A stretch of DNA of 42,102 nucleotides from Janibacter limosus NBRC 16128 (lineage in GTDB: Bacteria; Actinomycetota; Actinomycetes; Actinomycetales; Dermatophilaceae): contig NZ_BCSS01000029.1 of the NCBI RefSeq assembly GCF_001570985.1, positions 1 to 42,102 of the forward strand. Reading direction: 5' to 3'. Position numbers and translations under genes: made by a program. This document shows positions 7,284 through 9,795 of the stretch, piece after piece. The notes under the pieces were generated by a model, which saw only the letters and a program-made list of their open reading frames with translations, had not been told where the DNA came from and made no database searches. Position 1 is the stretch's first letter; the number at the start of each line of letters is the position of its first letter.

Positions 7284-9146
7284 TCAGAGGTGGGTGCGCA
7301 ACCGCTCCACGATCGGGTCCGGCGTCAGACCCACCGTCTCGAGCACCTGTGCCCGAGAGGCGTGGTCGATGAACTCCTTGGGCAGACCGAAGCGGTGCAC
7401 GGGCACGGACAGACCGGCCTCGTCGAGGGCACGAGCGACCTCGGCGCCCACACCGCCGGCAACATTGTTGTCCTCGATGACGGCGACCCGCCCGGCTCGG
7501 CGGGCGAGGTCGACGAGCGCGGTGGGCACGGGGAGCACCCACCGGGGGTCGACGACCAGGGTCGAGTGCCCCTCGGCTGCCAGCTTTTCGGCGACGGTCG
7601 TCCCGGTCCCGGCCATGGAGCCGATGGCGACGACGAGGACCTCGGGGTCGACACCCGGATCCCCGGCGAGGACGTCGAGACCGCCGATGGTGGACGTGGC
7701 CTCGATCGGGTCACCGACGCTCCCCTTGGGGAAGCGGATGACGGTCGGCGCGTCGTCCACGTCGACCGCCTCACGCAGCGCGCGACGGATCTGCTGCCCG
7801 TCGCGAGGTGCGGCCAGCCGCAGTCCGGGGACCAGGGAGACCAGGGACATGTCCCACATGCCGTGGTGGCTGGCGCCATCGGGCCCGGTGACGCCGGAGC
7901 GGTCGAGGACGAAGGTCACCCCCGCCTTGTGCATCGCGCAATCCATGAGCAGCTGGTCGAAGGCGCGGTTCAGGAAGGTCGCATAGATCGCGACGACGGG
8001 GTGCAGGCCGGTGAAGGCCAGACCGGCGGCCATCGTGGTCGCGTGCTGCTCGGCGATGCCGACGTCGAAGATCCGGTCGGGGTGCGCGTCGGCGAAGGGC
8101 TTCAGGCCGACCGGCATCATCATCGCCGCCGTGATCGCGACGATGTCGGGCCGCTGCGCCCCCAGCTGAAGCATCTCGTCACCGAACTCGTCGGTCCACG
8201 AGCGCCCGGAGATCTCCAGGGGCAGACCGGTCTCCGGGTTGATCTTGCCGACGGCGTGGAACTGGTCGGCCACGTCATTGCAGGCGTGCTCGTAGCCGCG
8301 CCCCTTCTGCGTGATGACGTGCACGAGCACGGGACCACCGAAGGCCTTGGCCCGACGCAGCGACTGCTCGACGCTGGCCTCGTCGTGGCCGTCGACCGGG
8401 CCGAGGTACTTGATGCCCAAGTCCTCGAACAGCCCCTGCGGCGCCCAGAAGTCCTTGGCGCCCTTCTTCATCGAGTGGAAGGCCTGGTAGGCCGCCCGCC
8501 CGACGAAGGGCGTGCGGTTGAGCTTGTCCTTGCCCCAGTCGAGGACCTGCTCGTACTGGCGGTTGGTGCGCAGCATCGCGAGGTGGTCGGCCAGACCGCC
8601 GATCGTCGGGGCGTAGGAGCGCTCGTTGTCGTTGACGACGATGACCATCGGCAGGTCCTTGTCGGCGGCGATGTTGTTGAGCGCCTCCCAGGCCATCCCG
8701 CCGGTCAGGGCCCCGTCACCGATCACGGCGACGGCATGGCGCTCCTCGCCGCGCAGTCGGTAGCCGGTCGCGATGCCCTCCGCCCACGACAGGGAGGTCG
8801 AGGCGTGGCTGTTCTCGCTCACGTCGTGCGGGGACTCGGCGCGGCTCGGGTAGCCGGACAGTCCCCCACGGGTGCGCAGGCCGCTGAAGTCCTGACGTCC
8901 GGTGAGCAGCTTGTGCACATAGGACTGGTGGCCGGTGTCGAAGACGACGGTGTCGCTCGGCGAGTCGAAGACCCGGTGGATCGCGATGGTCAGCTCGACG
9001 ACCCCGAGGTTGGGTCCGAGGTGCCCCCCGCTGCGCGAGACCTCCGCGACGAGGAAGGCTCGGATCTCCTGCGCCAGGGTCTCGAGCTGCTCCGCGGGGA
9101 GGCGCCTGAGATCGGCGGGAGAGGTGATCGTCTCGAGGACTGCCAC
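7284..9146 (-). CDS. dxs: 1-deoxy-D-xylulose-5-phosphate synthase
   Basis: This 620-residue cytoplasmic enzyme condenses pyruvate with glyceraldehyde 3-phosphate, the first step of the MEP isoprenoid pathway, using thiamine diphosphate. Visible motifs are [13 protein letters not shown] (about 40-52), [24 protein letters not shown] (about 108-120), the ThDP/Mg site [16 protein letters not shown] (143-158) and the transketolase-type catalytic Glu in [11 protein letters not shown] (Glu366). The C-terminal transketolase domain is complete. The start is a GTG at 9146, which gives [17 protein letters not shown] as in homologues and has GGAAGG 9 bases upstream; a longer frame upstream has no coding character. 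In M. tuberculosis dxs1 sits in the same block. The plus-strand long open frames over this gene are antisense artefacts of high GC. Confidence 0.97.
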
Positions 9147-9237: not shown

Positions 9238-9681
9238 TCACAACCGCTCGACGAAGATGCTCCCGTCCAGCGCCTCACGGATGAGCACGATGCCGCGCTG
9301 AGCGGCCCGCAGCCGCAGCCCCTCGTGCTCGAGGCACACGAGCAGCGCGTCGAGGGTCCCGTCCGGCAGGGACTCCGACAGGTCGACCCGCACCGTGCGG
9401 TAGGCCTGCCGCATCGCCTCGACCTGCGCCGCGACATGGCGCTCGGTCAACCAGGCCAGCGCTGCCGGGTGACGGCGCAGCACGGCGTGACCGCGGTAGT
9501 CGGGCGGGCACAGGTCGAGCAGCCACGAGACCGCCGCCGGCTGCCAGCCGCGCACGCCGGGCGGTGGGACCAGGTCCGGCCAGCCGGGGGGACCCCCCTT
9601 CGCCCCAGCCGCTGCGGTCCGCGCACCCGGCGACCCGGGCAGCGCCGGCCGCACCGGCGGACCCGCAGCATGATCGAACAT
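9238..9681 (-). CDS. Conserved actinobacterial protein of unknown function, probably SOS-controlled
   Basis: This 147-residue protein has no domain I can name. The first 35 residues are Pro/Gly/Ala-rich; the rest is helical and charged, with [20 protein letters not shown] followed by [34 protein letters not shown], a pattern I recall from unnamed actinobacterial proteins. No signal peptide or membrane helix. The start at 9681 was chosen because a TACACT -10 box lies 7 bases upstream, predicting a leaderless mRNA that begins at the ATG, and because a perfect LexA operator spans this ATG. An in-frame ATG at 9711 lacks a ribosome site. The gene lies between acnA and dxs, separated from acnA by a strong terminator, so it has its own promoter. 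Damage-inducible expression is a well-supported inference; the biochemical role is unknown. Confidence 0.75.
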
Positions 9682-9689
9682 GTGTTCGA
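9674..9689. promoter_or_regulatory. LexA operator (SOS box) on a start codon
   Basis: The sequence TCGAACATGTGTTCGA contains CGAAC-ATGT-GTTCG, a perfect match to the Gram-positive/actinobacterial LexA consensus CGAACRNRYGTTCG. On the minus strand the ATG of the small gene (9681-9679) lies inside it. LexA bound here would cover the predicted transcription start. Confidence 0.85.
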
Positions 9690-9717
9690 GTGTACGACGA
9701 TCCGGCGACATGACGAA
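9689..9717 (-). promoter_or_regulatory. Core promoter of the LexA-box gene
   Basis: On the minus strand a -10 TACACT (9694-9689, fitting the actinobacterial TANNNT form) is preceded at exactly 17 bases by TTCGTC (9717-9712), a weak -35. The +1 base, 7 bases past the -10, is the A of the ATG at 9681, so the transcript should be leaderless. Confidence 0.55.
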
Positions 9718-9751: not shown

Positions 9752-9795
9752 CACGGAGGGGAGGTCCTCGCCGCGGCGAGGACCTCCCCTCCGTG
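9752..9795 (-). terminator. Terminator of acnA, 44-bp perfect palindrome
   Basis: The whole interval is a perfect 44-bp palindrome (20-bp stem with a CGCG loop), GC-rich, starting 12 bases after the acnA stop. There is no U-tract, which is common for actinobacterial terminators. It also isolates the LexA-box gene from acnA read-through. Confidence 0.85.

Follow-up and report, generated by a model that had tools for sequence, protein, structure and literature searches.

The small gene at 9238..9681 (minus strand) of the window, by which we mean the whole 42,102-nucleotide stretch of Janibacter limosus NBRC 16128 DNA analyzed here, is best read as a DNA-damage-response gene without a name, probably held off by LexA sitting on its transcription start. 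The gene carries a perfect LexA-type operator that abuts the -10 element and has the start codon at its centre, and the operator is conserved before many orthologues. We consider it very likely that this gene is under LexA control.

Promoter and operator of the window gene

The operator, TCGAACACATGTTCGA, lies at 9674-9689 on the minus strand and is a perfect 16-bp TCGAAC-N4-GTTCGA, flanks included, with CGAACATGTGTTCG at 9675-9688 as its core; the pattern by which it was originally recognized has a chance expectation of 0.01 occurrences in the window. The box was predicted to cover the ATG, and it does: the start codon (9679..9681, minus strand) stands at the operator centre, and the operator spans both this codon and the predicted +1, which would fall within about 2 bases of the A of the ATG. 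The -10 element TACACT (9694-9689, minus strand) overlaps the operator by a single T, the last base of the one and the first of the other, and is followed, after 7 bases, by the ATG at 9681-9679. A weak -35-like TTCGTC (9712..9717, minus strand) was found 17 bases upstream of TACACT, likewise as described, and is not conserved in orthologues. The -10 is thus spaced so as to place the +1 at the start codon, with equal spacing before uvrA and uvrB. Additionally, ATGTCGCCG (9703..9711, minus strand), 8 nt before the -10, agrees with 6 of the 9 positions of TTGTCRGTG and is an uncertain, partial candidate for the -26 element of PafBC, a second damage regulator. The open reading frame encodes 147 amino acids, with a helical domain from about residue 30.

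In the mechanism that we propose, the window gene would be a member of the Janibacter LexA (SOS) regulon. RNA polymerase would use the promoter whose TACACT abuts the operator, with the +1 at or within about 2 bases of the ATG (9683-9681), so that the mRNA would be leaderless. With a LexA dimer bound at 9674-9689, the first codon, the +1 and the margin of the -10 would be covered and, in the simplest case, RNA polymerase would be excluded. Upon DNA damage, activated RecA would bring about self-cleavage of LexA, the site would be freed, and the small helical protein would be made.

A search of the whole Janibacter genome (3.38 Mb, 101 contigs) returned 6 perfect CGAACN4GTTCG sites versus 2 for the reversed control pattern. 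Apart from the site at the window gene, the five others adjoin recA, lexA, a DUF222 gene, a gene for a 2OG-Fe(II) oxygenase and a long ORF that matches nothing in Pfam; lexA and recA are therefore both present, and the Pfam matches to LexA and RecA lie next to perfect boxes of this type. At C36:8226-11239, lexA and a divergent LysM-protein gene have in common four clustered LexA boxes, full or partial, and the gene beyond this pair is one that we take to be nrdR-like. Upstream of recA on contig C16, about 70 nt separate a LexA box (62284-62297) from a strict PafBC motif (62193-62215), a layout like that of the two-promoter recA of mycobacteria. The oxygenase gene (C4:17992-21005) is of AlkB type, is divergent from recO and has its perfect LexA box upstream (1500-1515 of the locus); alkB is listed as a LexA target in Streptomyces venezuelae too, in the accessible part of that study (PMC9380542).

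The S. venezuelae LexA regulon, as described in the same accessible passages, rests on a 16-bp box, tCGAAC-N4-GNNCGa, and has many targets of function not known (PMC9380542); the window box is of the same kind. Among these targets is pvnz_37140, a gene for a hypothetical protein that shares its operon with a gene for DNA polymerase IV and whose box is given as beginning at -14 relative to the predicted start codon (PMC9380542); a 16-bp box at this place would reach into the start codon. An SOS box overlapping a start codon is thus not unheard of. The window gene family was not seen in the available part of the S. venezuelae target table, and operators placed on start codons are not taken up in the available passages (PMC9380542). 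A leaderless SOS gene like the one proposed here is lexA of Mycobacterium tuberculosis, where the translation start is also the transcription start; it is, however, a different gene, and in the passages available the operator is not placed on its start codon (PMC2897130). No paper recognizable as describing this gene family was found among the abstracts and passages of the open-access literature that were searched.

LexA boxes and PafBC motifs before orthologues

Upstream of orthologues, 154 distinct regions were compared, and 68 of them have a LexA box that deviates at no more than one position; of 1677 control windows 0 had such a box, and 46 had one with two mismatches. The 154 regions represent 197 loci after merging, which are related and not independent, and which came from 30 of the 59 matching order-level genomes plus one more and, of 159 family-level genomes, from the loci listed plus 60 picked by genus; the control windows were 360 nt long and were taken from the 80 named loci only, so that class-level genomes are not represented in them. 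In 63 of the 68 box-bearing regions a TANNNT overlaps the box by one base, the T that ends the former and begins the latter, and 56 have an in-frame start codon at the box centre (ATG in 30, GTG in 26). A chance palindrome without function would hardly recur in 68 regions and no control window, in a fixed register with the -10; we rejected it on the control windows and give it next to no weight. Ten of 16 Janibacter genomes contain the 21-base promoter-operator pattern TANNNTCGAACNNATGTTCGA, each a single time and at this gene; the other 6 lack it. Taken together, these comparisons support the prediction of a LexA operator on the +1 and start codon of an mRNA that is probably leaderless, and show an operator that is conserved upstream of orthologues, though not universally.

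Farther out in the class Actinomycetes, 28 of 82 homologues are preceded by a LexA box with no more than one mismatch, often at another position (the box stands before a TATGCT -10 at L279, L283 and L290, for example); these 82 loci were used out of 156 matching genomes, and 3 of them are also in the first set. Neither a LexA nor a PafBC motif was found, at the thresholds used, in 39 of the 154 regions and 49 of the 82 class-level regions. Six distant homologues from relatives with large genomes, probably Streptomyces, and 27-31% identical, had no LexA box near the gene and PafBC scores of at most 5/9, and dxs was not seen in their 3.3-kb loci. Phage records yielded no homologue at E up to 0.01, and plasmid records gave 5 matches, distant homologues from Nonomuraea and Embleya among them. 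When 460 nt were scanned for four of the plasmid homologues, the best LexA-like sites had 2, 1, 2 and 2 mismatches, a level (two or fewer) reached in 46 of the 1677 control windows of 360 nt; three of these four Nonomuraea/Embleya plasmid sites fit tCGAAC-N4-GNNCGa with at most one mismatch.

Nineteen of the 154 regions, from Ornithinimicrobium and Serinicoccus, carry the variant TCGTAC-N4-GTTCG, with an ATG directly after it in nearly all listed cases; the variant encloses TACACT or a similar -10, here also seven bases before the ATG. This variant is probably a LexA box, a reading supported by the TCGTAC-type SOS box at S. venezuelae dnaE2-1, which was confirmed by SPR according to the accessible text (PMC9380542). 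Sites of the form CGWACN4GTWCG numbered 9, 6, 12 and 5 in four variant-type genomes versus 1, 10, 2 and 3 for the reversed control, one genome thus speaking against enrichment, and neither lexA nor recA was among the 16 loci with variant-type sites in Ornithinimicrobium-type genomes. At another locus of one such genome (G596 C1:893830-893843), CATACT runs into TCGAACACATGTACGA, a box centred on an ATG, and the layout of a start codon on an operator may therefore recur there at a second gene.

The RecA-independent damage response has the consensus tTGTCRgtg - 8 nt - TannnT, as given in the part of the report available (PMC5656591), and orthologues without a LexA-type box often show YTGTCGGTG, eight bases, a -10 and then the start codon a few bases on. 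At a score of at least 7/9, a PafBC-type promoter was present in 24 of the 67 regions without a LexA-type box (about 2 expected), and 11 of the 67 scored 8/9 (about 0.3 expected), although binomial tails for these counts overstate the evidence because related loci are not independent. The motif matches at 9/9 in Kineosphaera limosa and Piscicoccus intestinalis. In 20 of the 24 regions it lies at -70 to -35 from the core; the four outside this range are L024, L028, L101 and L105, the last from Ornithinimicrobium, with a variant box missed by the search expression. Absence of the box from orthologues had been named as a point that would speak against the prediction, and here the outcome was mixed: 68 of the 154 regions keep the box, and 24 of the 67 without any LexA-type box bear a PafBC-type damage promoter instead.

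Within the Janibacter genome itself, the strict PafBC motif had 22 matches versus 2 for its reversed control, and an adjacent pair of WYL-domain proteins like pafB-pafC is encoded. The Pfam scan of open reading frames covered 7 of 20 strict-motif loci, naming the genes behind seven motifs as uvrA, uvrB, an AlkZ-like glycosylase gene, dnaB, ssb and two genes for DUF222/HNH proteins, with another motif before recA; most of the other 13 loci are without a recognized damage gene and some may be chance. In five of these genes (uvrA, uvrB, the glycosylase gene and the two DUF222/HNH genes) the start codon follows 6 or 7 nt after the -10, a spacing from which leaderless damage genes seem common in Janibacter. 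The promoters of uvrA, uvrB and the glycosylase gene have the architecture of the PafBC-type orthologues of the window gene, whereas the window gene itself joins a perfect LexA box to only a partial PafBC element. At the two DUF222/HNH genes (C20:35199-35221 and C34:10550-10572, minus strand), where the start codon lies 6 nt after the -10 of a strict motif, the spacer and -10 form a LexA-like half site (gTCGAACA-TATGAT or TACGAT, then CGA); these two are possible combined PafBC/LexA promoters.

Both regulators could also act at the window gene, with PafBC, activated by single-stranded DNA, activating from the degenerate -26 element and LexA repressing at the +1, on one common -10. TGTC does stand at the exact PafBC register in 11 of the 63 LexA-box regions, window included, as against at most 1 of 63 at each of 16 other registers, and the WYL pair, the 22 strict motifs (some before uvrA, uvrB, dnaB, ssb and recA) and the 24 PafBC-type orthologue regions are in keeping with such a scheme. 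None of the 63 LexA-box regions, however, scores 7/9 at that register (the window has 6/9), 2 of 68 score it anywhere in the region searched, and the two motifs together occur in 0 of the 82 class-level regions; furthermore, the TGTC may be a single inherited remnant, because at least 9 of the 11 cases are from Janibacter or close kin. We judge dual control rather unlikely on this balance and retain LexA as the regulator of the window gene. Mycobacterial recA P1/P2 is a comparable case of one damage gene linked to PafBC and LexA, as far as the available passages describe it (PMC5656591, PMC11804915), but there two separate promoters are involved, while the window gene family has alternative elements, by lineage, at one leaderless promoter.

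Start codon and neighboring genes

That the overlap with the start codon is itself the conserved element was rejected: in 12 of the 68 regions the box centre is out of frame or holds no start codon (Pedococcus bigeumensis and Dermacoccus abyssi are examples), and class-level boxes often lie elsewhere. L018 is counted among the 56 in-frame regions, but reading from its box codon meets a stop immediately. On the sequences compared, the overlap of the LexA box with the start codon is a lineage-specific trait, and damage control is wider. Translation from the box codon gives M or V and then F or Y, followed in many species by a PP(L/V)R...PGxPG-type motif ahead of the conserved domain; the conservation of this N-terminal motif favors real translation from the box codon.

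A start at the box codon is nevertheless only probable, because 32 of the 56 in-frame cases, window included, have a further in-frame ATG or GTG upstream before any stop. In the window and several Janibacter this is an ATG 30 nt upstream, at 9711, and were it the true start, the mRNA would be leadered and the LexA box would be an intragenic operator, of a kind known in Streptomyces according to the passages available (PMC9380542). We hold this to be improbable, given that in 24 of the 56 cases reading upstream from the box codon reaches a stop, or the end of the sequence covered, without passing an ATG or GTG, that J. indicus, J. anophelis and J. hoylei have no ATG at the place equivalent to 9711, and that a start at 9711 would put the -10 abutting the box (63 of 68 regions) inside the gene. 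The start at the box codon, and with it the leaderless promoter, remains our preferred reading. The operator might alternatively serve mainly damage-induced read-through into dxs, the small ORF being secondary. This gene (7284..9146, minus strand, with its start as chosen) is the next one, 91 nt downstream on the same strand, and may receive read-through: the scan listed no terminator in the 91-nt gap, a weak test in that it needs a T-run and missed the hairpin before the window gene, and the gap folds no better than shuffles. Moreover, dxs lies downstream on the same strand in 67 of the 80 named loci, and in 42 of these it begins within 250 nt. Against such a role for the operator, the other 25 gaps measure 271 to 4625 nt, box-bearing Phycicoccus and Knoellia loci among them, and the small protein is itself conserved, so that we think it very improbable that dxs is the main target.

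The same evidence of synteny and of a gap without a listed terminator bears on the original prediction that a strong terminator parts the gene from acnA and that the LexA control is private to it. A hairpin with a 20-bp stem (9752..9795, minus strand; -48.3 kcal/mol, z -8.5) does lie between acnA and the window gene and is a probable acnA terminator, but it has no T-run, and it was missed by the terminator scan because the scan needs one. Private control was not supported at the dxs side; LexA control need not be confined to the window gene. Overall, the original interpretation is supported for the LexA operator, the probable leaderless mRNA and the undescribed damage-response gene, and is not supported for private control.

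The protein family and its place in the damage response

A single-sequence search found the protein in 59 of 198 genomes sampled at the order level, in 159 of 186 at the family level and in 11 of 296 at the phylum level, and a profile search found it in 156 of 393 genomes of the class Actinomycetes (64 of 123 genera). The 147-residue product had been described as without a named domain, which agrees with the lack of any Pfam or NCBIfam match at E up to 1. When 57 family members were compared with Pfam, NCBIfam, PHROGs and PADLOC, scattered weak matches to unrelated models were all that was found and were taken as noise, the best being at E 0.0031 (an NCBIfam MFS transporter model, 6 members) and E 0.0037 (PADLOC IetS, 3 members). 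Known SOS cell-division inhibitors and RecA modulators include SulA, DivS, ChiZ, DinI and RecX; profile scans gave no Pfam match to families of these types at E up to 0.1 among the 57 members, and the one member that matched the NCBIfam RecX model (E 0.027) was taken as noise. Among PDB sequences the best match, a SAM-domain protein at E 0.023, was likewise taken as noise, and no structural neighbor stood out among PDB and viral folds.

The AlphaFold2 model, built with 57 sequences, has a mean pLDDT of 83.1, with block means of at least 90 over residues 31 to 140 and mostly low values over residues 1-27, and predicts a helix over residues 46-56, followed by long ones over 72-101 and 109-138. 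Residues invariant in an alignment of the window protein with 56 rows from named loci include W53, D56, C58, R63, R69, H82, R98, E120 and R123; the alignment took 56 of the 80 named loci, omitting near-duplicates and some long or interrupted 5' ends (L079, L101, L116 and L123 among them), and the rows of L117, L118 and L121 were shortened at the 5' end. As modeled, the protein is a confidently predicted helical one without a family or fold match. The presence of motifs for two different damage regulators before this gene, one or the other depending on the lineage, makes a DNA-damage-response effector the best reading of the family; that the protein works through a bound partner in repair, replication or division rather than as an enzyme is a guess that could go either way.

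The LexA boxes before orthologues and the class-level homologues support the proposal that this may be an undescribed actinobacterial DNA-damage-response gene. A broader reading, which we put forward tentatively and at clearly less than even confidence, is that the family is an undescribed, Actinomycetes-wide damage-response family whose leaderless promoter has been passed between LexA, a repressor on the +1 and start codon, and PafBC, which would activate from -26; Janibacter would be among the lineages that have kept elements of both on a single -10. The analysis adds to the probable DNA-damage response of Actinomycetes a conserved family that has no known domain and is present in 156 of 393 class genomes, and a repair, replication or checkpoint function that has so far gone unnoticed would become testable in easily grown bacteria. 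Furthermore, the orthologous promoters would form a natural series in which one gene changes both its damage regulator and the position of its operator, opening the turnover of the LexA and PafBC regulons to direct study.
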